Source: Draconibacterium sp.
GTDB taxonomy: Bacteria > Bacteroidota > Bacteroidia > Bacteroidales > Prolixibacteraceae
Length of the DNA: 64,000 nucleotides
Direction of reading: 5' to 3'
Assembly: GCA_011620585.1 (NCBI GenBank)
Contig: WOYV01000070.1
Span: 1 to 64,000 of the forward strand
How positions within the stretch are numbered: the stretch's first letter is position 1; each line of letters starts with the position of its first letter. Positions 2,945-27,713 of this stretch are shown here, piece after piece. A program made the position numbers and the translations under genes. The notes below the pieces were generated by a model. The model was not told the origin of the DNA and searched no databases. It worked only from the letters and a program-made list of their open reading frames with translations.

Positions 2945-3265
2945 ATGAGTAAAAAAGAGCAAATATTACAGCTGATAAAAATGGTCGTTGACAAAAATGC
3001 ACCTGATTCAGAAGTTTATTTGTATGGTTCTCAGGCACGTGGAAATGCAAAAAAACTTTCCGATTGGGATTTGTTGATTCTGCTCAATTCTGCAAATGTG
3101 TCGTTTGACTTTGAGACTAAATTCATGGACGAATTCTATGAATTGGAATTAAAAACAGGAGAAATTTTTTCGCCATTGATTTATTCAAAAAATGACTGGA
3201 ACTCAAACTACTCGATTACTCCGTTATACGAAAATATTCAAAAAGAAGGAATTAGACTAAAATGA
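2945..3265 (+). CDS. MNT-type nucleotidyltransferase antitoxin
   Basis: 106 residues. The minimal nucleotidyltransferase motif GS-x10-DxD is complete: G28-S29, then D40-W41-D42. Length and the absence of further domains fit the MNT antitoxins (MntA-like), which in characterised pairs transfer AMP to their HEPN toxin. The stop overlaps the start of the HEPN gene by 4 bases (ATGA), the usual coupling. It sits alone with its partner between two copies of an intergenic repeat, as a self-contained cassette. Adenylylation activity is inferred from the family. Confidence 0.85.
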   Translation: MSKKEQILQLIKMVVDKNAPDSEVYLYGSQARGNAKKLSDWDLLILLNSANVSFDFETKFMDEFYELELKTGEIFSPLIYSKNDWNSNYSITPLYENIQKEGIRLK

Positions 3266-3651
3266 CCGGAACAAAAAATGAATTGATTAATTATAGAATT
3301 GCCAGAGCAAAAGACACCTATGACGATGCATCAATTCTTGCAGAAAGGGAAAAATGGAATTCGACAATTAACAGATTGTATTATGCCGCTTATTATGCAG
3401 TAATGGCTCTTCTACTCGACTCTGACTTAAAACCAACAACCCACAACGGAGCAAAATCAAACTTCTCGGAGTATTTCATTAAGACTGGTAAGATTGACTC
3501 AAAATACGGTAAAATGTATTCTCAATTGTTTACTTGGAGACAAAAAGGAGATTATGACGATTTATTCGATTTTCACAAAGACAATGTAGAACCTTATTTT
3601 GAACCAGTTAATGATTTCATCTCGATGATTGAAAGCATGATACAAAAATAA
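3262..3651 (+). CDS. HEPN-domain toxin of the MNT/HEPN pair
   Basis: 129 residues, all helical in appearance. Residues 33-50 (WNSTINRLYYAAYYAV) are the strongly conserved first HEPN helix of the UPF0332 type, and residues 58-76 keep KPTTHNGAK..F...F. Residues 93-98 read RQKGDY, giving R-x3-D-Y where other HEPN toxins carry R-x4-6-H, so ribonuclease activity cannot be assumed. It is translationally coupled to the MNT gene by an ATGA overlap. Role: toxin of a type VII-like pair, by family and context. Confidence 0.8.
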   Translation: MTGTKNELINYRIARAKDTYDDASILAEREKWNSTINRLYYAAYYAVMALLLDSDLKPTTHNGAKSNFSEYFIKTGKIDSKYGKMYSQLFTWRQKGDYDDLFDFHKDNVEPYFEPVNDFISMIESMIQK

Positions 3652-17506: not shown

Positions 17507-17652
17507 TAATAAATTAGATAATTAGGCGCTTTGCTAAGAATTTGTAAAAAAAATCATCAAAATTATGTCGATTTGTTTGTGTAATTCGAAGTAAATTCGA
17601 TATTTGTAGTACTGAAATTTAACAACTTTTAAGATTTTTAAATACTGGAAGA

Positions 17653-17688
17653 GGGTAATCAGTGAAAAATGGGGTTTGGGGGAACCCT
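17653..17688 (+). promoter_or_regulatory. Conserved leader element of susC 1
   Basis: GGGTAAT (17653-17659), GTGA (17662-17665), then the hairpin GGGGTT-TGGGGG-AACCCT (17671-17688). The same arrangement occurs upstream of the second susC at 22768-22802 with a covarying stem. The hairpin ends 68 bases before the ATG at 17757. A possible promoter, TTTG (17576) and TATTTG (17601), lies upstream, so the element would be in the 5' untranslated region. Confidence 0.55.
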
Positions 17689-17756: not shown

Positions 17757-20700
17757 ATGAAAAGATTAGCTCTGTTTTTTGTATTCCTGTTTGTAGGACT
17801 CACGGCAGTTTTGGCACAAACCAAAACAATTACCGGGGTTGTAACAGCAGGTGCAGACGATTCTCCGATTCCCGGGGTATCGATTATGCTAAAAGGAACA
17901 ACCTTGGGTACCATCACAAACATCGATGGTGAGTACACATTAAAAGTGCCTGAAGATGCACAAACCCTGGTTGTGTCGTTTATTGGTATGAAAACGCAGG
18001 ATGTAGCCATTGGTAGCCAAAGCGTTATCAACGTGGTTATGGAAGCTGACGTTTTTGGTATCGACGAAGTAGTGGTTACCGGTGTGGCAGGCGCCACCGA
18101 GAAAAAGAAACTTTCGGTTTCGGTAGCCTCTGTTTCAGCAGATCATTTGGAAAAAGTACCCGCGGGTTCAGCAGCCAGTGCACTGCAAGGTAAAGTTGCC
18201 GGTGTTCAGGTAACCAGTTTGGGCCGTCCGGGTTCGGGCGCTACCATCCTGTTACGTGGCGCTGCCAACTTTTACGGATCTAACGCTCCGCTCGTATTGA
18301 TGGACGGTGTGTTTGTTGAAGGTGGTTTAGCCGATATCAACGTTGATGATATTGCCAGTTTCGAAATTGTAAAAGGCGCTTCAGCATCTTCATTGTACGG
18401 TTCGCGTGCGGGTAACGGTGTTATTGTAATAACCTCGAAGCGTGGTGCTTTTGGTACTCCTGAAGTAACTGTTCGTTCGGAGCTTGGTTTCTCTCAAATA
18501 ACCAACTTTGTTGACGTAAACATGTCGCATCAGTTTAAGCTTGCTTCTGATTGGGAACAATATAAAGGTCAGTACACAAAATTTGAAGGTATTGACTATC
18601 CTGCTGATTGGGGAGGAGTGTATGCAGCTGGAGGCGAACAGGCCACATCAGGTGCAAGAATTGAAGAAGAGGATAGATACGCTGATAATCCTTTTGGCGT
18701 TTATTACGATTTTCAAGACCTTTTCTTTAAAAAAGGTACCAATGCCACTGAATATGTATCGATTGCCAGTGGAACTGAAAAATTCAAAACGTTCTTCTCT
18801 ACTGAATACAATAAAGTGGACGGTGTACAGAAAGAAATTGGAGGATACTCTCGAAATACTTTTCGTTTTAACATGGATTATTACATTAACGATTGGTTGA
18901 AATTCAGCGCCAGCAACAACTTTATTAAACTGATCGACAACAGTACTTTTAATGATTTTCGTACCATTACCCGAATCTCTCCGGATGCCAATGTAACATT
19001 CCCTAACCCTGACGGTCAACCATACTGGTACAAAGCCGACCCATGGGATAACGAAGTAAATAACCCCTTGTATAATGCTTATGCTATTGATGCAAAAACA
19101 AAACAGCAACGTTTCCTGGGCGGTTACAAACTGAATGTAAAATTCACCGACTTCCTGAACCTCGATGCTGAATATTCGTTTGAAAGTAACAACAGCCGTT
19201 ATACCAGCAACTACAAGTATGAAACATATACCCAAACTGGTGATGAAATTGGATTTGGATATAGTAAGGGTAGTTTAGAGAAAAGAAGTTCGCTGAACAT
19301 GGTGCAGAAAGCGCAAACCACTTTAAACTTTTCAAAACAATTTGGCGAACTCGATGTAAAAGCAAAATTAAGCGCTTTGGCTGAAGACAGACATTATGAA
19401 TATTTCAGTGCTCGTGGTCAGGACTATTTGTATAAAGATATAGCTTCACTTGATAACTTTGACAAGGCGAATATTTCTGCTCATTCTGATCAGACAGCAG
19501 AACGCGCCCAAAACCTATTTGCGATTGCCAGTTTGGTTTATAAAGACCGTTATATTTTCGATGGTTTGTACCGTAAAGACGGTTCTTCACTGTTTGGTGC
19601 CAACGAACGTTGGAACGACTATTACAGGGTATCGGGTGCTTACCGTATTACGCAGGATATCACCATTCCGGGTGTTCAGGAATTGAAAATTAGTGCAGCC
19701 CATGGTACTGCCGGTCAACGCCCTGGATTTACATGGCAATATGAAATGACCGAATTGAGCGGAGGTACTTTACCTTATGACCGTATTAAAGGTAACCCTG
19801 ACCTGAAACCGTCGAAAACCGCTGAAACCGAGATTGCTTTGAGCGCTCAGTTCCTCGACAGGTTTAGTTTGGATGCAGCTTACTCTTTCCAGGAATCAAC
19901 CGACCAGTTTATGCTGGTAAACCTGTTTGCCCCAGCCAACGCCGGTAAAAACCGTCAGTGGCAGAACGTAGGTAACCTCGAAACCAAAACCTTCGAATTA
20001 TCATTGAATAGTCAGATCGTTCGCTCGAAAGACTGGAACTGGGATGTAACGGTTAACTTCACCAAAACAAGTTCTCTGATCACCCAGTTAAACGTGGCTG
20101 AGCAGTCTGTAGGCCCAACAGATAACGTTCTTTTTAAAATTAAGGAAGATACCGAATTCGGAGCCATGTATGGTTACAAATTTGTTCATGATTTGACGAC
20201 CATGGAAAAACAACTACCTGATGGCGAATCGATCAGCGATTACAGTGTAAACAGCGACGGAGTTGTGGTTAAAACTTCAACCATTGGAAGCGTTGACGAA
20301 AAAGCTGTACTCGAAGTGGATGAAAACGGCGCTCCGTTATCGCAGGAAATCGGTAACCAAAATGCGGACTGGTATGCGGGAATTGTGTCAAACCTGTCGT
20401 ACAAAAACTTCGACTTCTATATGCTGTGGGATTACAAACACGGCGGCGACATTTACAACCGTAATACACAGTGGAACGTAATTGCAGGCCGCTCGGCAAT
20501 TGTTGACCAGGCCGGTAAAGCTGAAGCCAATAAGAAAACCACTTTGTATTATCAGTCACTCTACCAGGTGAACCAAAACGTTGATTTCTGGGTAGAAGAC
20601 GGAACGTTCATGAAACTAAGAGAAGTATCTCTTTCTTACACCTTGCGTAAAAAGCAAATGGAAAACTTCCTGAACGGATTCTTTAAAGAATTTAAATTCA

Positions 20701-20858
20701 GCGCTATTGGTAGAAACGTTTTGACTTTCACCAAATACTCCGGATGGGATCCTGAAGTTGCCGCTTACGACGACGACACTCAGCAATATTTTAGCGCCGA
20801 CACGGGTGTATATCCTAACCAGGCTTCGTATTCTTTCTCAGTGCAGTTTAAGTTTTAA
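17757..20858 (+). CDS. SusC/RagA-family TonB-linked outer-membrane protein (locus 1)
   Basis: 1033 residues. Signal peptide 1-20 (ends VLAQ), then a CarboxypepD_reg-like domain (about 23-100: ITGVVTAGADDSPIPGVSIMLKGTTLGT), TonB-box-like IDEVVVTG (about 101-108), a plug domain (about 115-230, with LRGAANFYGSNAPLVLMDG and SLYGSRAGNGVIVITSK) and a beta-barrel ending in an aromatic F-K-F. It imports oligomers through the outer membrane with its SusD partner 18 bases downstream. No glycosidase, protease or sensor gene adjoins the pair, so the substrate cannot be named. A conserved leader hairpin precedes it. Confidence 0.93.
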   Translation: MKRLALFFVFLFVGLTAVLAQTKTITGVVTAGADDSPIPGVSIMLKGTTLGTITNIDGEYTLKVPEDAQTLVVSFIGMKTQDVAIGSQSVINVVMEADVFGIDEVVVTGVAGATEKKKLSVSVASVSADHLEKVPAGSAASALQGKVAGVQVTSLGRPGSGATILLRGAANFYGSNAPLVLMDGVFVEGGLADINVDDIASFEIVKGASASSLYGSRAGNGVIVITSKRGAFGTPEVTVRSELGFSQITNFVDVNMSHQFKLASDWEQYKGQYTKFEGIDYPADWGGVYAAGGEQATSGARIEEEDRYADNPFGVYYDFQDLFFKKGTNATEYVSIASGTEKFKTFFSTEYNKVDGVQKEIGGYSRNTFRFNMDYYINDWLKFSASNNFIKLIDNSTFNDFRTITRISPDANVTFPNPDGQPYWYKADPWDNEVNNPLYNAYAIDAKTKQQRFLGGYKLNVKFTDFLNLDAEYSFESNNSRYTSNYKYETYTQTGDEIGFGYSKGSLEKRSSLNMVQKAQTTLNFSKQFGELDVKAKLSALAEDRHYEYFSARGQDYLYKDIASLDNFDKANISAHSDQTAERAQNLFAIASLVYKDRYIFDGLYRKDGSSLFGANERWNDYYRVSGAYRITQDITIPGVQELKISAAHGTAGQRPGFTWQYEMTELSGGTLPYDRIKGNPDLKPSKTAETEIALSAQFLDRFSLDAAYSFQESTDQFMLVNLFAPANAGKNRQWQNVGNLETKTFELSLNSQIVRSKDWNWDVTVNFTKTSSLITQLNVAEQSVGPTDNVLFKIKEDTEFGAMYGYKFVHDLTTMEKQLPDGESISDYSVNSDGVVVKTSTIGSVDEKAVLEVDENGAPLSQEIGNQNADWYAGIVSNLSYKNFDFYMLWDYKHGGDIYNRNTQWNVIAGRSAIVDQAGKAEANKKTTLYYQSLYQVNQNVDFWVEDGTFMKLREVSLSYTLRKKQMENFLNGFFKEFKFSAIGRNVLTFTKYSGWDPEVAAYDDDTQQYFSADTGVYPNQASYSFSVQFKF

Positions 20859-20876
20859 TGTTAAAAGAGTATAGAA

Positions 20877-22334
20877 ATGAAATATTTAAGAAATTTATTA
20901 TTGATCACATCGGTACTGTTATTTGCGGTATCGTGTGATGATTTTTCGTTGGACCTTGAGGTTCCGAACTACGAACACCCCAACGACGTGATTTTGAACT
21001 CTGAGCCTACAGCTTTGACTGCTGTAGCCGGTAACGTGCTTCATGCATGGTACATGACTGTTCATGAATATAATGGACCATGTATGGCTATGCAAACTAT
21101 GGCTGACGTAAGTACCTGTTCGTGGGGTAACGTAGGTATGAATGATATGTCGCACGAGCCAAGAGGTGCCTGGAATAACCTGCCTTCCTATGGTTACGAA
21201 TATGTCACAAGCACATATTTTAATGCCATGTATTCTATTTTGTCCGACGCTAATACTTTGGTGGCAGCAGTAGAACAAGGAACCGAATTTGAAGATCCCG
21301 ACCTGGTGAAATTGATGGGTAAAGTAGGTCAGGCTCTTTCAATTGGTTATTCGGCGTTGGTTTTCGACCGAGTTTGGTTATCAGATGAAAACGGTCCGGT
21401 AAACGAAGACGGCTCATCAGTCGATTACAAGGAAGCCATGACTTTTGCTATTCAAAAACTGGATGAAGCTATTGCTATGGCCGGTAACATTATTGTGCCA
21501 GATAGTTGGTTGCCCGGTGGTGGTGGAGATGCTACAAAATTTAAAGCTTTCCTGAATAGTATGGGTGCCCGTATGTTGGTAGGCAACGTACGTAATAAAG
21601 CTCAAAAAGCCCAAATCGATTGGAATAAAGTATTAATATATGCAAATGCTGGTGTTTCTGAAGACTTTACCATTTTTATGGATGATGTAGTTTGGTACGA
21701 TCTCGCTCCAAAAACATACTTAGTGTTAGGTGGCTGGGGAAGAACCGATATGTATGTGGTAAATATGATGGATCCAAATACTCCGAGTTACTGGCCCGAT
21801 GGAGAAACAATTCTTCCTCCCTCTACTTCGGCTGATGCGCGTTTGGAATCAGATTATCAATATTTGTCGAGCCAAAGTTTTAACCCAACTCGGGGTACCT
21901 ACCATTACAGTTCCTATCGTTACGCTGCACTCGATTATTATATTACCGAGTGGGTAACCGATGTAACCGAATTTTCAGCATCAGAAAACGATATGTACAA
22001 AGCCGAAGCTTTGTTGCAAATCGGTAAAGTTGCCGAAGCCGCTGCTGTTGTTAATGCCGGTACGCGTACCGTAAGGGGTCAGTTGCCTCCTGTTGATGCC
22101 ACTGCCGAAGCAGTTGCAGCAGCCATTCATTACGAAAGATGTGTGGAATTTGCATACACGGGTATGTCTCTCAGTTTCTTCGAAATGAGAAAAGAAGACC
22201 TCTTACAAAAAGGTACTCCATTGCATTTCCCTGTTCCGGGAAAAGCGCTGGAATCGATTCCTGAAGAAAACTACACTTATGGTGGTACAACCGGTGTTGC
22301 CGGCGAAGACTACTCAACTGGTGGTTGGAGATAG
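20877..22334 (+). CDS. SusD/RagB-family outer-membrane lipoprotein (locus 1)
   Basis: 485 residues. Lipobox C20 (LFAVSC), then an acidic tether. N-terminal region about residues 40-150 and the C-terminal SusD block (MYKAEALLQIGKVAEAAAVVNAGTR...; IHYERCVEFAYTGMSLSFFEMRK) identify the family, in which TPR-like helices bind the substrate over the SusC barrel. It is the second and last gene of its operon; a hairpin lies at 22359-22384. No surface enzyme follows. Confidence 0.9.
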   Translation: MKYLRNLLLITSVLLFAVSCDDFSLDLEVPNYEHPNDVILNSEPTALTAVAGNVLHAWYMTVHEYNGPCMAMQTMADVSTCSWGNVGMNDMSHEPRGAWNNLPSYGYEYVTSTYFNAMYSILSDANTLVAAVEQGTEFEDPDLVKLMGKVGQALSIGYSALVFDRVWLSDENGPVNEDGSSVDYKEAMTFAIQKLDEAIAMAGNIIVPDSWLPGGGGDATKFKAFLNSMGARMLVGNVRNKAQKAQIDWNKVLIYANAGVSEDFTIFMDDVVWYDLAPKTYLVLGGWGRTDMYVVNMMDPNTPSYWPDGETILPPSTSADARLESDYQYLSSQSFNPTRGTYHYSSYRYAALDYYITEWVTDVTEFSASENDMYKAEALLQIGKVAEAAAVVNAGTRTVRGQLPPVDATAEAVAAAIHYERCVEFAYTGMSLSFFEMRKEDLLQKGTPLHFPVPGKALESIPEENYTYGGTTGVAGEDYSTGGWR

Positions 22335-22358
22335 TTCAACCATCTGAAAATTATAAAA

Positions 22359-22384
22359 AGGAGAACCAATTTTTCGGTTCTCCT
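22359..22384. terminator. Hairpin after susD 1
   Basis: AGGAGAACC (22359-22367), 8-base loop, GGTTCTCCT (22376-22384): a perfect 9-bp stem. No T-run follows on the plus strand (CTAATG), while the minus strand would have one, so termination on the plus strand is uncertain. Confidence 0.45.
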
Positions 22385-22420
22385 CTAATGTACTCTTTCA
22401 AATAGACCGTAGTTGCGAAC

Positions 22421-22513
22421 GATATCCAGCCGGGAGGTACTCACTCTACATTTTACTCACAATTACCCTTCGTAGAACTTTTTGAAAAAGCCTCCCGGCT
22501 TTTTTCTTTTTTA
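22421..22513 (+). ncRNA. Nested stem-loop element, copy 1 (candidate small RNA)
   Basis: Outer stem AGCCGGGAGG (22428-22437) with CCTCCCGGCT (22491-22500), inner stem TCTAC (22445-22449) with GTAGA (22472-22476), loop containing TCACAATTACCCTT (22457-22470), and a T-run right after the outer stem. A second copy at 22931-23008 keeps both stems, the loop and the T-run. The loop is complementary to GGGTAAT..GTGA in both susC leaders. I see no promoter of its own. Confidence 0.45.
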
Positions 22514-22767
22514 ATGCAATAGATAGATTTTTTTGTTTCCTCATTACTTATAAGCCCCTTTGTTAATTAATTGTCAAATGGGCATGTTTTATTGCCTGAA
22601 AATATGGCAATTTGACTTTTCAATTCCGCGCCTCAAATATCTTTCACTGTATTATCAAAAGTCAAAAAATGGTTTCATTATTTTTGACGTTCTGATTTTT
22701 TTTTTACACATTTGTAACTGTTAAAAAAATTAACCATTAATAATGGTCTTTAACAATTGGCAAAAAA

Positions 22768-22861
22768 GGGTAATATGTGATAATGGGATTTGGGGGAATC
22801 CCGCACTTTTTATATCAAATTGAATTTATAGCTGTTTAATTTTACTAAAACTATTTCTATG
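22768..22861 (+). promoter_or_regulatory. Conserved leader element of susC 2
   Basis: GGGTAAT (22768-22774), TGTGA (22776-22780), hairpin GGGATT-TGGGGG-AATCCC (22785-22802), then TTTATAGCTGTTTAAT...AAAACTATTTCTATG ending at 22861. The third stem pair is A-T here and G-C in leader 1, with an identical loop. The spacing from hairpin to ATG (22859) matches leader 1, but the real susC 2 starts 252 bases further on, after a second copy of the same leader tail. Confidence 0.55.
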
Positions 22862-22930
22862 TTCAGTTATGAAGTAGCCGTGTGTTTATTTTCCCAAAAG
22901 ATGTTTGCGTATAAGCCGTTTGTGGTAAAA

Positions 22931-23008
22931 GATATTGCCGGGAGGGACTCGCTCTACTTATACTCACAATTACCCTTCGTAGAATTTTTAACTCTCCCGG
23001 CTTTTTTT
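22931..23008 (+). ncRNA. Nested stem-loop element, copy 2 (candidate small RNA or attenuator)
   Basis: Outer stem GCCGGGAG (22937-22944) with CTCCCGGC (22994-23001), inner stem TCTAC (22953-22957) with GTAGA (22979-22983), loop with TCACAATTACCCTT (22964-22977), then a run of seven T. It lies in the 5' region of susC 2, about 100 bases before its ATG, so it could stop transcription before the gene. A 62-codon ORF starting at 22859 runs through it but shows no family resemblance. Confidence 0.45.
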
Positions 23009-23110
23009 AAGATGGTCCGCACTTTTTTACGCGAACATCTACGCTAAATACAAGACGAGAATGACTTATATTTTTTATAGCTGTTTTATTAATAACTAAA
23101 AATTATTTCT

Positions 23111-26100
23111 ATGAAAAAAATTGCGATTTTTTTATCGATTCTCCTTTTCATGGGAACTATGGCATTCGCTCAAACCAGGAGTCTGAGTGGAACGGTTACC
23201 TCGGAAGAGGATAATCTGCCTATTCCCGGAGTATCGGTTTCAGTGAAAGGGACTACCCTCGGAACGATCACCAATTTGGATGGTCAATTCGAATTTAAAG
23301 TTCCCGAAGATGCCCGAACACTTGTTTTTCGTTTTGTGGGTATGAAAATCCAGGAAATTGCGATTGGTTCGCAAACAACTTTCAATGTTAAGATGACAAC
23401 CGAGTCGGTGGGGATTGATGAAGTGGTTGTTACTGCTATGGGTATCAACCGGCCCAAGCGCGAAATGACCTATCAAACCCAAAATGTGAAAGAAGAAGAA
23501 CTAACAAGAGTAGCCCCTACAAGAGCCGCAAGTGCTCTTGCAGGTAAAGTAGCTGGATTACAGATCAATGTTCAGGACAACGGAGTTAATCCGTCGACAC
23601 AAATTCTGTTAAGAGGGTTGCGGTCTATTAGTGGCGACAACTCTGCTCTTATTGTAATCGATGGCTCAATCGCCTCTCAGGGAGCATTTGACGACTTGAA
23701 CCCTAATGACATTGCCGACATCAGCATATTGAAGGGTGCCACAGCTGCTGCTCTTTATGGATCCAGCGCAGGTAACGGAGCATTGATTGTTACGACCAAA
23801 AGAGGGAAAGAAGGGGATAAATTTACTGTTGGGGTAAATTCAGCATACACGGCTGAGAAAGTAGCTTATATGCCCGAATTCCAGACAAAATACGGAACGG
23901 GTTGGGAAGGAGCTTATGATGCAGTTGAGAATACTAACTGGGGACCGCGATTTGATGGTACCTTAAGACAAATCGGCCCAACTTTCCCCGAAGGTTATGG
24001 ATTGGAAACACAAATGGTGCCTTATGCTCCGGTAAAAGATAACCTTTTACATTTTTTCAATACCGGTAATACATTTAACAATACAGTTTATTTTAGTGGA
24101 AGTGGAAATAACAGTACTTTTTATGTGTCGATAGGGGATCAAAGATCTGACGGTATCGTGCCAGAGGATACGTATGAAAGAAATACATTCAGGGTAAATG
24201 CAACAAAAAAAATAGATAAAGTTGAGTTGGCCGCCAGCATAAATTATTTTACCGATAAAACCGATGTGGTGGGCAGCACAATTGGAGACCAGGATCGTCC
24301 ATTATACTGGTTTATTTTGAATACCTCGGCCAACATCCCTCTGGAAAAATACAAAGACTGGCAAAACCCGTTAAGCTACGGATATGCCGATAATTATTAC
24401 AATGCCTATTACCAGAATCCGTATTGGGCTGTAGGAACCAACAGAAATATTTATGAATCAAACCGTTTGATTGGTAACGTCAGTTTATCGTACGACATAA
24501 TGGACTGGTTGAATTTTACTGCGCGCGCAGGTGTTAACAATGTTTGGGGAAATGGTAAAAACTGGAGAGCAGCCCAAACCTACGATCCAGATCTGCAACC
24601 TTCGGCAGGAGCTGTTTCTTCTTTTGTAGAAGACACTGAATATCAGACCAAAACTTATACCGGCGATGCGCTGGTGACGGGTAATTTCAAATTTCTGAAT
24701 GACTTTACACTGAAAGCGATTCTCGGCGGGACTGTCTTTTCAACTGATACTAGAGAGAGTACTTTGCGTGCCAATAACCTAAGTATTCCTGGCTTTTACG
24801 ATATTTCGAATGGAACAGGGGCTTTGGTTGGTACAGTTAACGAGTCCGTAAAAAGGAATTTTGGGTTTTATGGAGACTTTACGCTTGGATACAAAAACTA
24901 CTTATTCCTGAACTTCTCAGGACGTAACGACTGGACTTCCACCCTGGCCAAAGGTAACAACAGTTATTTTTATCCTGCTGTTGGGCTTTCTTTTGTTGCA
25001 ACTGACGCGTTTGAAGCGCTTAAGAACAACGAAGTTTTGTCGTCTGCAAAGATTACAGTTGGTAACTCAACTGTATACAATGACCTTGCTCCATACCGTA
25101 TAAATGAAACCTACTCGCAATCGAACGGATTCCCGTTTGGATCGGTTAACGGTTTCTATTTATCAAACACTGCGGTTGATGCCAATATTTCAAAAGAAAA
25201 AATTAATACTACAGAAATCGGTCTTAACCTTGGTTTCTTCAGAAGTCGGATGTGGGTGGATGCTTCCTGGTTCAATACCGTCACTTCTGATTTGATCACA
25301 TTTACCACTCCATCGATAACCTCAGCGTCAACATCTTTCCTGACGAATATTGGTGAACTTCAGGGCAAAGGGCTTGAACTTACTCTTGGAGGTACAGTGT
25401 TGAACGTGAGTGATTTTAAATGGGACATAAACCTTAACTATACTTCGAGCGAAACGGTAGTAAACGAAATTTATGAAGGGCTCGACGAAGTCGCAGTAAC
25501 CACAACCGGGCAGTATGGTATTTATGCGGTTGTTGGAGAAGCTTTCCCACAGATGAAAGCCAATGTTTATCAGCGCGATCCCCAGGGGAGATTAATCGTA
25601 GACCCGGTCAGCGGCCATCCAAAAACGGAAACTGCCTTGGTAAGTTTGGGGAAAACCACCCCTGATTATATTATTGGGTTGAATACCGTAATAAGCTATA
25701 AAGGATTGTCGGTTTCTACTACATGGGATTATCGTACCGGGCATGTGTATTACGAACAGGGATCGGATGCAATGGAATTTACCGGACGTTCTATGGCTAG
25801 TGTTTCAGCTAACCGCCAGGACTTTGTAATTCCGAATTCGGTGATCGAAACCAGCCCAGGTGTCTATGTTGAAAATACAAACATTCAGGTAAGAAGTGGG
25901 CGTCAAAGTTACTGGACCGATGTGTACAATGATGTAAAATCGAACTATGTAAAAGACGCTACGGCTTTAAAAATGAGGGAACTGGCCGTTAATTATGAGT
26001 TGCCGGCCAGCTTGCTTGCCAAAACTCCACTTCAGAAAGTTTCAGTTGGGTTTATCGGCAGGAATCTTCTCACTTGGTTACCAGCTGAGAATAGGTTTTC

Positions 26101-26206
26101 TGACCCTGAATTCAACAACAATAATGATAACAGAATTGGGGTGGGAGGGTACTTCCAGTCGCCACCAACCAAATCTTACGGTTTTATCTTAAATGTAGAA
26201 TTCTAA
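23111..26206 (+). CDS. SusC/RagA-family TonB-linked outer-membrane protein (locus 2)
   Basis: 1031 residues. Signal peptide 1-20 (ends MAFAQ), CarboxypepD_reg-like domain (LSGTVTSEEDNLPIPGVSVSVKGTTLGT), TonB-box-like IDEVVVTA, plug (LLRGLRSISGDNSALIVIDG; ALYGSSAGNGALIVTTK) and a barrel ending FILNVEF. Its N-terminal 100 residues are closely related to locus 1, while the plug and barrel differ, so the two receptors probably take different substrates. It heads a four-gene unit with susD 2 and two lipoproteins. The 5' region is unusually long and structured. Confidence 0.93.
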   Translation: MKKIAIFLSILLFMGTMAFAQTRSLSGTVTSEEDNLPIPGVSVSVKGTTLGTITNLDGQFEFKVPEDARTLVFRFVGMKIQEIAIGSQTTFNVKMTTESVGIDEVVVTAMGINRPKREMTYQTQNVKEEELTRVAPTRAASALAGKVAGLQINVQDNGVNPSTQILLRGLRSISGDNSALIVIDGSIASQGAFDDLNPNDIADISILKGATAAALYGSSAGNGALIVTTKRGKEGDKFTVGVNSAYTAEKVAYMPEFQTKYGTGWEGAYDAVENTNWGPRFDGTLRQIGPTFPEGYGLETQMVPYAPVKDNLLHFFNTGNTFNNTVYFSGSGNNSTFYVSIGDQRSDGIVPEDTYERNTFRVNATKKIDKVELAASINYFTDKTDVVGSTIGDQDRPLYWFILNTSANIPLEKYKDWQNPLSYGYADNYYNAYYQNPYWAVGTNRNIYESNRLIGNVSLSYDIMDWLNFTARAGVNNVWGNGKNWRAAQTYDPDLQPSAGAVSSFVEDTEYQTKTYTGDALVTGNFKFLNDFTLKAILGGTVFSTDTRESTLRANNLSIPGFYDISNGTGALVGTVNESVKRNFGFYGDFTLGYKNYLFLNFSGRNDWTSTLAKGNNSYFYPAVGLSFVATDAFEALKNNEVLSSAKITVGNSTVYNDLAPYRINETYSQSNGFPFGSVNGFYLSNTAVDANISKEKINTTEIGLNLGFFRSRMWVDASWFNTVTSDLITFTTPSITSASTSFLTNIGELQGKGLELTLGGTVLNVSDFKWDINLNYTSSETVVNEIYEGLDEVAVTTTGQYGIYAVVGEAFPQMKANVYQRDPQGRLIVDPVSGHPKTETALVSLGKTTPDYIIGLNTVISYKGLSVSTTWDYRTGHVYYEQGSDAMEFTGRSMASVSANRQDFVIPNSVIETSPGVYVENTNIQVRSGRQSYWTDVYNDVKSNYVKDATALKMRELAVNYELPASLLAKTPLQKVSVGFIGRNLLTWLPAENRFSDPEFNNNNDNRIGVGGYFQSPPTKSYGFILNVEF

Positions 26207-26219
26207 AAATCACATCAAT

Positions 26220-27713
26220 ATGAAAAAGATATTAAAATATACAGGCTTATTGATGATCGTCGTTTCATTTATGTCATGCGATGATTTTCTCGACGTGAAT
26301 GACGATCCAAACAACCCGGTGAGTGTAACACCTGATTTGGTACTGCCCGTTGCACAGGTTTATACCGCTAACATTATACAGGGCAATACCGGGAGAAGAG
26401 CTAATTGCTTTGGGAATATGCTTATGTACAACTGGAGCCAGAGTGATGGTTATTCGTGGTACACCGATGAGTTTAAATATAATGTTACTTCTTCTTTTTA
26501 TCAGGGAATATTTAACGACAGCTATTCCTCTGCATTAAAGCAGTATCAGATACTTGATCAGTTGGAAGGAGAGAAGTATAACAACTACAGAGCGATTGCG
26601 AAGGTTATGAAATCATTCCATTTTCAGTTACTTGTTGATTTTTACGGAGATGTGCCATACACAGAAGCTTTGTTGAGAAGTGAGGAAGCAACACCTGTTT
26701 ATGATGATGCTCAGACCATTTACGAGGATTTGATTACAGAGCTTGATACCGCGATCTTTTTGATCAACAATGCCTCCAGCACTTCACTGGTTCCTGGGGC
26801 GGATGATGCAATCTTCTCGGGGGACATGACGGATTGGAAGAAATTTGCCAACACGTTAAAATTGAGGATTTTGGTTCGTCAGTCAAATATGTCAGGAAGA
26901 GATGGATACATTAAAACTGAACTTGGTAAGATAGCAGCCGAAGGGTCCGGTTATATTACTTCTGATGTAGGAGTGAATCCTGGTTATGTGAAAGAAGAAG
27001 CTAAACAAAGTCCTTTCTGGAATTATTTTGGTTGGGATGCAAGTGGAACCATCACAATGGACAACAATGCTACTTGTGCAACCGACTATGTACTGGAGTA
27101 TCTTACAACAACTACTGATCCAAGAATTGACTATTTGTATGAAAAACCATCGACCGGGCATTTGGGTGTTCCGCAAGGATTGCTAGATTATGATACTCCC
27201 GTTCCAGATGCGTTCGTTCCTGCATTGGTTTCGAATATAGGGCCTGGTTTGTTAAAAAGCCCTACACAGGATGCCGTAATTTTTACTCTGGCCGAGAATT
27301 ATTTTAATCAAGCAGAAGCTCGTTTGAAAGGATTAATCACATCTGGTGACGATGCCAAAACTTTATACGAAAATGGAATTGAAGCATCATTCGATTATTT
27401 AGGTGTAGCGGAAGACAGATATGATATTTATATTGCCCAAAACAAAAATCTTGTAAACTGGGATTCTTCGTCAGACAAATTGGAAGCTATTATTACCCAG
27501 AAATGGATAGCCGTAAATGGAATAACAGCTGAACAGTCGTGGTTTGATTACAATCGTACAGGATTTCCTTCAGGTCTTCCGATTTCTCTGCAATCAGCAA
27601 AATCTGATCGACCGGTACGCATCTATTATCCGGCAGGAGAATATTCGTCCAACGGAGAGAACGTACCTGCTCAGCCTGACGCATTTACTGAAAAAGTATT
27701 TTGGGGTAAATAA
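26220..27713 (+). CDS. SusD/RagB-family lipoprotein, SusD-like type 2 (locus 2)
   Basis: 497 residues. Lipobox C20 (SFMSC), followed by DDFLDVNDDPNNPVSVTPDLVLPVAQVYTA, the N-terminal signature of the SusD-like 2 group. ADVPYTEA-type VDFYGDVPYTEAL (about 138-150), a central TPR-like part, and the C-terminal ...AEQSWFDYNRTGFPSGLP region support this. It binds substrate on the cell surface for the SusC immediately upstream (13-base gap). Confidence 0.9.
   Translation: MKKILKYTGLLMIVVSFMSCDDFLDVNDDPNNPVSVTPDLVLPVAQVYTANIIQGNTGRRANCFGNMLMYNWSQSDGYSWYTDEFKYNVTSSFYQGIFNDSYSSALKQYQILDQLEGEKYNNYRAIAKVMKSFHFQLLVDFYGDVPYTEALLRSEEATPVYDDAQTIYEDLITELDTAIFLINNASSTSLVPGADDAIFSGDMTDWKKFANTLKLRILVRQSNMSGRDGYIKTELGKIAAEGSGYITSDVGVNPGYVKEEAKQSPFWNYFGWDASGTITMDNNATCATDYVLEYLTTTTDPRIDYLYEKPSTGHLGVPQGLLDYDTPVPDAFVPALVSNIGPGLLKSPTQDAVIFTLAENYFNQAEARLKGLITSGDDAKTLYENGIEASFDYLGVAEDRYDIYIAQNKNLVNWDSSSDKLEAIITQKWIAVNGITAEQSWFDYNRTGFPSGLPISLQSAKSDRPVRIYYPAGEYSSNGENVPAQPDAFTEKVFWGK

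Follow-up and report, generated by a model that had tools for sequence, protein, structure and literature searches.

In a group of marine bacteria, a terminator-type hairpin carries a loop antisense to the susC leaders of one locus and probably acts by base-pairing with them. The window, by which we mean the whole 64,000-nucleotide stretch of Draconibacterium sp. DNA analyzed here, contains two copies of this element, one at the end of a susCD gene pair and one in the leader of the next. Computational support is provided by the conservation of the element, covariation in its stem, complementarity of its loop to the leaders, a joint change of loop and leader site, its occurrence in two positions, and an ORF that reads through it. 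We consider it very likely that RNA–RNA pairing is the selected function. On sequence grounds, we further infer that free small RNAs are formed and that the net effect is probably repression, and we lean slightly toward a translation-coupled attenuator for the copies located within leaders (class A). An earlier note on this DNA had offered two readings, namely a family of trans-acting small RNAs or an attenuator in the 5' region of susC2; both survive with partial support, one for each copy. The genes and element copies of the locus are as follows.

17757..20858 (+), susC1 (TIGR04056, E 1e-180)
20877..22334 (+), gene in the susD position after susC1, assigned by position only
22429..22505 (+), element copy 1 (class B), terminator-type hairpin and U-run, 3' of the susC1 gene pair
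22457..22470 (+), anti-site loop of copy 1, sequence TCACAATTACCCTT
22937..23008 (+), element copy 2 (class A), terminator-type hairpin and U-run, within the susC2 leader
22964..22977 (+), anti-site loop of copy 2, sequence TCACAATTACCCTT
23111..26206 (+), susC2 (TIGR04056, E 2.5e-174)
26220..27713 (+), susD2 (PF12771, E 9e-71)

The gene at 20877..22334 had no Pfam or NCBIfam match. We compared the window with 19 regions of 20 kb (L066-L084) and found the locus mostly syntenic, usually 3' of a YjjG-type HAD gene, with one to three susCD pairs in each stretch seen. The susCD genes at this locus (window positions 17757-27713 and the 19 regions) look like exchangeable cassettes. Over their initial 60 nt, 19 other susC2-type genes are 80-87% identical to that of the window, and the proteins are ~27-38% identical to the window's susC2 or susC1 products, close susC1 types aside; flanks, leader, and element are kept.

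Copy 1 (22429-22505) consists of the arms GCCGGGAGG...CCTCCCGGC followed by TTTTTT, and copy 2 (22937-23008) of GCCGGGAGGG...CTCTCCCGGC followed by TTTTTTT. The loop is identical in both copies, as the earlier note had observed, and the identity extends over 24 nt (TACTCACAATTACCCTTCGTAGAA). Predicted fold energies are -23.6 kcal/mol for copy 1 and -22.3 kcal/mol for copy 2 (z -4.2 and -4.5), with 0/200 shuffles folding as well in either case. The element had been described as a nested stem-loop, of which the outer stem is certain, whereas the TCTAC/GTAGA inner stem is the minimum-energy form in copy 2 only; the corresponding fold of copy 1 favors UUUUAC/GUAGAA. In an alignment of 29 copies, 97.6% of outer-stem cells are paired and two pairs show two-sided changes. 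The inner stem is mostly paired as well, but with only one-sided changes or unpaired cells across the 29 copies; its role as a key feature is unsupported. Both counts retain one row (G066B) that is misaligned in the 5' arm. Overall, the element is a GC-rich hairpin of the terminator type with a U-run in most copies, the run being weak in some (e.g., G061, G062, and G069). A further hairpin at ~22359-22384, ahead of copy 1, lacks a U-run. Comparison of the 64 kb window with Rfam returned no family at the gathering score, and the low-threshold matches near the element resemble chance.

The earlier note had counted a lack of further copies in this or related genomes as grounds for refutation; such copies are present throughout much of the genus, with diverged ones beyond it. 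Searching for the 24-mer with at most three mismatches retrieved 29 copies in 20/140 family genomes, representing 20/37 genomes of the window's genus and 0/103 others, while a reversed-pattern control on the same 140 genomes retrieved 0. The exact pattern, searched in one genome each for 84,980 species, gave 14 stretches, all from Draconibacterium or Maribellus records. A covariance model built from the 29 copies and run on the 140 family genomes recovered diverged copies in two other genera (G107 twice, G108, G109; G132) at E 3e-13 to 1e-10, along with matches in G036 (E 2.5e-4) and G040 (E 1.4e-4), both from the window's genus. At E 0.1, 38/140 genomes match the model, the remainder of them weakly, with other weak matches ranging from E 4e-4 to 0.1.

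A genome-wide family within the window's own genome is not what we found: the pattern gives two copies and the model adds one weak, partial match on contig C73. We rejected the latter (E 5.5e-4) as a third copy given that it is partial and lies on the strand opposite a gene end. Among 393 genomes sampled from the order, only two more matches were retrieved (43-48 nt, E 2e-4 and 4e-4), and these are ordinary short-loop terminators lacking the loop. The element was not found in viral contigs. In nine further genomes, no anti-site loop was detected near the leaders by a finder that calls eight perfect pairs and loops of <75 nt, with several of the contigs ending early; operon-end terminators, where seen in these genomes, had short loops, and three of the nine (G048, G055, and G052) gave weak element-model matches on other contigs. 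A search of the open-access literature, with most subscription papers outside its scope, returned no report of the element. As the genomes are related, counts of copies and leaders given here are not independent.

Copies of the element occupy two positions. Class B comprises 5/29 copies together with those of G036 and G040, and class A comprises the other 24/29. Class B copies lie 3' of the last gene of a same-strand susCD run in 7/7 cases, operons being read from gene order, and copy 1 follows the last gene of its run by ~95 nt. Class A copies are situated within a susC leader, between the predicted leader promoter and susC. The gap between element and susC contains no further -7 consensus box in 21/23 class A cases, one of the 24 having been excluded because its susC start was not recognized. 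A TAnn(n)TTTG box does occur between element and susC in G035, G066, G107 (second copy), G108, G109, and G132. Going by this distribution, the hairpin resembles an attenuator in most of the genus, and elsewhere it resembles the terminus of a separate short unit.

Promoters of Bacteroidota follow a -33/-7 consensus. In the window, predicted promoters, the leader sites complementary to the element loop (site I), the leader hairpins, and an ORF in the second leader are arranged as listed.

17576..17606 (+), predicted promoter of leader 1: TTTG, 19 nt, GATATTTG; one mismatch to the -33/-7 consensus
17651..17665 (+), site I of leader 1, GAGGGTAATCAGTGA, complementary to the element loop; -14.2 kcal/mol, 0/300 shuffles
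17672..17687 (+), leader 1 hairpin, GGGTT-TGGGGG-AACCC
22683..22714 (+), predicted promoter of leader 2: TTTG, 20 nt, CACATTTG; a consensus match only, with a weaker -7 box
22766..22780 (+), site I of leader 2, AAGGGTAATATGTGA, complementary to the element loop; -16.1 kcal/mol, 0/300 shuffles
22785..22802 (+), leader 2 hairpin, GGGATT-TGGGGG-AATCCC
22859..23047 (+), leader ORF of 62 codons with a susC-like start context, running through copy 2

A similar promoter box, identified by consensus match only, precedes the leader hairpin in most leaders; the TAnnTTTG promoter motif is named in PMC9723704. Site I lies ~30-50 nt 3' of the predicted -7 box, reads GGGTAATNNTGAGTA in many leaders, and is followed by the hairpin. 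The latter, with its TGGGGG loop, has 6 bp, 100% of cells paired, and two-sided changes at 3/6 pairs across 27 leaders. After the hairpin comes a start codon in a susC-like context, mostly TTTCTATGAAGGGG where an element follows. In 23/27 leaders, versus 0/6 leaders without an element of their own, the site I stretch doubles as the 5' strand of a longer leader stem, at a cutoff of >=7 nt expected paired that was chosen afterwards. At E 0.01, a model of the leader matches 37/140 family genomes, several of which place the TGGGGG or TGGGG loop on quite different stems; in the window genome, the model finds just this locus's two leaders at that threshold. We also considered whether the leader box recurs elsewhere in that genome and dismissed this, as most other matches to GGGTAAT..GTGA and TTTGGGGGAA fall inside ORFs.

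Two further features of susC leaders were noted. Hairpins with a TGGGGG or TGGGG loop occur on quite different stems before other susC genes (L176, L177, L178, L182, and L108), in genomes that have at most weak element matches elsewhere or belong to another genus; they are perhaps part of a wider susC leader RNA motif. A near-palindrome, GTTAAAAAAATTAAC, is present at window positions 22719-22735 and in many leaders, close to the predicted transcript start, and is sometimes repeated ahead of the element in long leaders. It is a candidate for either a 5' hairpin or a regulator site.

The complementarity between loop and leaders was confirmed at 22766-22780 and 17651-17665 and goes beyond chance, with 0/300 dinucleotide shuffles pairing as well per 45-nt leader window (-14.2 kcal/mol in leader 1 and -16.1 kcal/mol in leader 2). 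When both strands of the 64 kb were scanned with a 16-nt loop core, setting aside the antisense strand of both copies, leader 2 ranked first and leader 1 fourth among non-self targets. We extended this comparison to 24 leader–element pairs, covering 23/24 class A elements (one G051 element lacks a hairpin leader). The best leader site for the loop core was in every case site I (8), the first start codon (14), or the start codon of a nearer ORF (2), and <=10/200 dinucleotide shuffles paired as well in 23/24 pairs, the exception being the first G053 leader (74/200). Site I alone, paired with the best anti-site of its genome, was equaled by <=7/200 shuffles in 22/27 leaders. A good site I is absent from 5/27 leaders (two in G038, one in G051, and those of G067 and G069), all five of which have start-codon pairing. 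The leader of window copy 2 has lost its start-codon match (site II, -5.9), and site I is kept in both window leaders. Leaders of susCD pairs that lack an element of their own, in the leader or 3' of the pair, provide natural negatives: hairpin leaders of this kind in G039, G060, G064, G065, G069, and G070 failed to pair in 6/6 cases, with 91-172/200 shuffles performing as well.

For class B, pairing with the leader of the same run is good in five cases (the window, G036, G040, G043, and G044). The susC1 leaders of G039 (16 or 193/200 shuffles) and G066 (10 or 24/200) give results that depend on the loop core chosen and are doubtful. The five elements from other genera pair mostly nonsignificantly with the 450 nt upstream or 340 nt downstream, the best value being 9/150 (second copy of G107), with 11/300 for G132 in a narrower test. 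Given this weak local pairing, the loop may have other partners in those genera. Generic binding to all susC start codons was considered and discarded, given that pairing at 24 susC-like matches in the window genome reached -8.9 kcal/mol or weaker; some of these matches are fragments, and a crude rule was used to choose the starts.

Loop and site I have changed together in G036 and G040. The loop in these genomes reads ATTATAGTTTCCC instead of ACTCACAATTACCC, and site I is GGGGGAACTATAA. The altered loop and altered site form 14 consecutive pairs (-17.9 and -18.8 kcal/mol, 1/300 shuffles each). The 29 other anti-sites reach at most -6.0 kcal/mol on the G036 leader, and the G036 anti-site averages -7.4 on 33 main leaders, but attains -16.8 on one of them. 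Because the two genomes are near relatives, this coevolution counts as one event; it is nevertheless the strongest individual piece of evidence for the pairing. The joint change in one lineage offers a ready mutational test of the pairing.

Class A copies display the layout of an attenuator, with a leader ORF overlapping a terminator between a predicted promoter and the gene. Across the 35 codons that precede the element, 21/24 class A copies keep frame 0 open, compared with 1/24 and 2/24 for the other frames, and frame 0 holds 6 stops versus 89 and 60. Frame 0 reads the class A element as LTLHxLTITLRR. It is open in 0/5 class B copies. A homologous start is present in frame 0 in 20/24 class A copies, located 105, 108, or 120 nt upstream and including two GTG codons; this start is displaced by one base in the window and the second G051 copy, lies at another distance in G068, and is unrecognized in G067. 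The window is the single copy whose only open frame is a different one, yet that frame is open through the hairpin. Three of the 24 class A copies (second G051, G067, and G068) show no read-through from a homologous start or have no such start.

Purifying selection on the encoded peptide is not clear, with pN/pS of 0.81 and 0.69 in frame versus 0.50-0.81 in the wrong frames, and neither sensing codons nor a conserved arrest peptide was recognized in the leader ORFs. Given that pN/pS is no lower in frame and that the shifted frame of the window is still open, the data suggest that translation of the leader ORF may matter rather than its peptide. The alternative that a conserved leader peptide (LTLHLLTITLRR) is the selected feature was rejected on these two grounds, and because class B copies carry no ORF and the ORFs of G107 and G108 stop before the element. 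Long leaders fit less well. There, pairing falls on the start codon of a short first ORF that stops ahead of the element, and the ORF that does read through has, in most such leaders, a start that fails to outperform shuffles in pairing, with G061, G062, and the first G038 element as exceptions. This pattern weakens the attenuation logic and is left unexplained by it.

These observations can be joined in the following model. A class B element (copy 1) would terminate the susC1 operon, and the resulting 3' RNA, whether free or still attached, would pair with site I, open the leader hairpin, and lower susC expression, so that the operon would exert feedback on itself as well as cross-talk with the following one. 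At a class A element (copy 2), ribosomes translating the leader ORF through the hairpin would allow transcription to reach susC2. Should an anti-site, either its own or that of an RNA already released, block the leader, ribosomes would be kept off and transcription would stop, each such stop releasing another copy of the antisense RNA. For the trans-acting RNA proposed in the earlier note, the placement of class B 3' of susCD runs (7/7) is favorable, whereas the window genome has only two full copies. The attenuator proposed there for susC2 agrees with the placement of class A and the lack of a -7 box in 21/23 cases; its proposed sign, in which loop–leader pairing prevents termination, is unsupported. 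The opposite sign is at least as likely because the leader ORF is read through the terminator.

A stronger version of this model is a self-reinforcing switch. In class A, the terminated RNA would be antisense to the leader's 5' end and start codon, such that each stop favors the next, and the copies at operon ends would let one susCD cassette silence its neighbors, giving exclusive or two-state receptor use. Taken as a whole, we regard this elaboration as unlikely.

Among other explanations, a purely trans-acting small RNA working in the manner of FopS, with leader ORF and attenuation irrelevant, has the best standing, and we judge it rather unlikely. In G107 (second copy), G108, G109, and G132, a susC promoter box, TAAATTTG, with an upstream TTG lies 3' of the element; with a separate susC promoter, the element in those genera would act in trans only or not at all. 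The pairing at start codons resembles that of FopS on susC (PMC11697453), the window genome encodes an RRM_1 protein of the RbpB class, and two more stretches of that genome match the loop region. Against this account, most of the genus has no consensus promoter between element and susC, the ORF is kept open through the element, and the two full copies in the window genome are both at the locus.

An anti-terminator would reverse the sign of regulation. The nascent leader, through site I or the start codon, would pair with the loop in cis, and the terminator would stay open such that susC is transcribed. Nested folding agrees in part, since the anti-site pairs with site I or the start codon at a probability of >0.5 in 16/23 class A leaders, with the outer stem then mostly lost. 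However, the nested fold of window copy 2 keeps its outer stem (0.99), and the folding program cannot represent a pseudoknot in which the pairing and the terminator stem coexist. Moreover, pairing and translation through the element would both mean ON, thus leaving no obvious OFF state. This explanation does not apply to class B, because class B follows the last gene. We consider it unlikely.

A DNA-level explanation, in which site I and the loop are oppositely oriented copies of an operator for a local transcription factor, appears very unlikely. Site I does lie close downstream of the predicted promoter, and a change of factor would also account for the joint change in G036/G040. However, the sites often differ (as judged by eye) by insertions of 1-2 nt, a difference that is tolerable in an RNA duplex but rarely so in an operator. 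In addition, one of the two sites always lies within the loop of a hairpin whose stem covaries, and in the window genome the leader model detects this locus's two leaders alone. Least probable is the absence of any regulatory pairing, with ordinary terminators and with conservation arising from homologous exchange of susCD cassettes via shared leader DNA: cassette swapping is apparent (19 susC2-type gene starts 80-87% identical, proteins ~30%), but the loop core is kept in other genera with different leaders, the stem shows compensatory changes, loop and site have changed jointly in G036/G040, and pairing fails in leaders of pairs without the element.

The preferred model of a pairing terminator loop shares features with several known systems. 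OppZ and CarZ are autoregulatory 3'-UTR small RNAs of Vibrio cholerae (PMC7398697) and, like the RNA predicted for class B, arise from the 3' end of an operon and are complementary to the 5' region of the same operon. The corresponding location, at the 3' end of the operon paired with, was found for 7/7 class B copies, with good pairing in five. By contrast with OppZ and CarZ, the seed here lies inside the terminator loop, and the leader of the following operon contains a second copy. The FopS family of Bacteroides thetaiotaomicron has 14 members, in which a single-stranded 5' seed precedes a separate terminator (PMC11697453). As in the FopS/RbpB system outlined there, a Bacteroidota RNA is complementary to susC leaders, often at the start codon; by comparison with FopS, the present seed is in the terminator loop, full copies are at the target locus, and the leader 1 site of the window is ~90 nt upstream of the susC start codon. 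The element is not FopS or GibS, as its conserved loop lies between the arms of a terminator-type stem. In the 64 kb window, GibS gave an Rfam match of E 3 on the opposite strand (20.1 bits versus a cutoff of 115), and no FopS model was among the hits, the sequence-model test resting on GibS. The window genome encodes an RRM_1 protein of 104 aa (L018:2164-2478, G000:C73; PF00076, E 4.5e-26), which is the domain class of RbpB.

Class A also resembles rnTrpL of Sinorhizobium meliloti, a tryptophan-responsive, attenuator-derived RNA acting in trans on trpDC (PMC7298713): a terminated leader RNA with a small ORF could here also act as antisense. Unlike rnTrpL, the present element has a loop that matches the leader it belongs to, and sensing codons were not recognized. 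The DonS-type cis-antisense RNAs of Bacteroides PULs likewise involve antisense regulation of susC genes, which is predicted here, and are encoded divergently to susC (PMC7366714). The element is not of the DonS type, as its T-run and stem orientation place it on the susC strand.

If the proposed model holds, the RNA control of Bacteroidota glycan-receptor genes outside gut genera would gain an element combining terminator, antisense RNA, and attenuator, in which a single type of hairpin serves both at an operon's end and within the leader of the operon that follows. It would bear on the choice among exchangeable SusCD surface receptors at a single locus and hence on nutrient interactions. SusCD receptor choice probably matters for phage interactions too. 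As read from sequence, the finding is richer than first described, since the earlier note had not mentioned the conserved hairpin just 3' of each complement, the ORF across copy 2, the relatives, or the distinct positions of the two copies. It is a predicted variant among known kinds of RNA control, and its coevolution signal is clear.

Several stretches outside the locus also show complementarity of this kind. In the window genome, AATTGTGAGTAAAAGTAGAGT (G000:C73:12011-12092, L149) is complementary over ~21 nt to the 5' half of the loop region and underlies the partial C73 model match on the other strand. It sits just 5' of a terminator-like hairpin where an ABC-transporter-like gene ends, and is possibly a target, a sponge, or a relic. 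Another susC leader of the same genome (L161, G000:C49), which has CGAAGGGTAT, pairs with the loop core at -17.9 kcal/mol (2/300 shuffles) and is a possible trans target. A gene start at G000:C130:36463-36474 (L137), TTCTATGAAGGG, matches CCCTTCGTAGAA of the element in antisense, one of the pairs being G-U, and its product has a signal-peptide-like start. Finally, a G047 leader without a detected element (L175, reverse strand, oriented 3185-3315) carries site I. Just after its start codon, AATTTCAC...TTACCC can pair with site I at -18.1 kcal/mol, enclosing the start region, and this leader perhaps represents a cis version of the loop–leader pairing.
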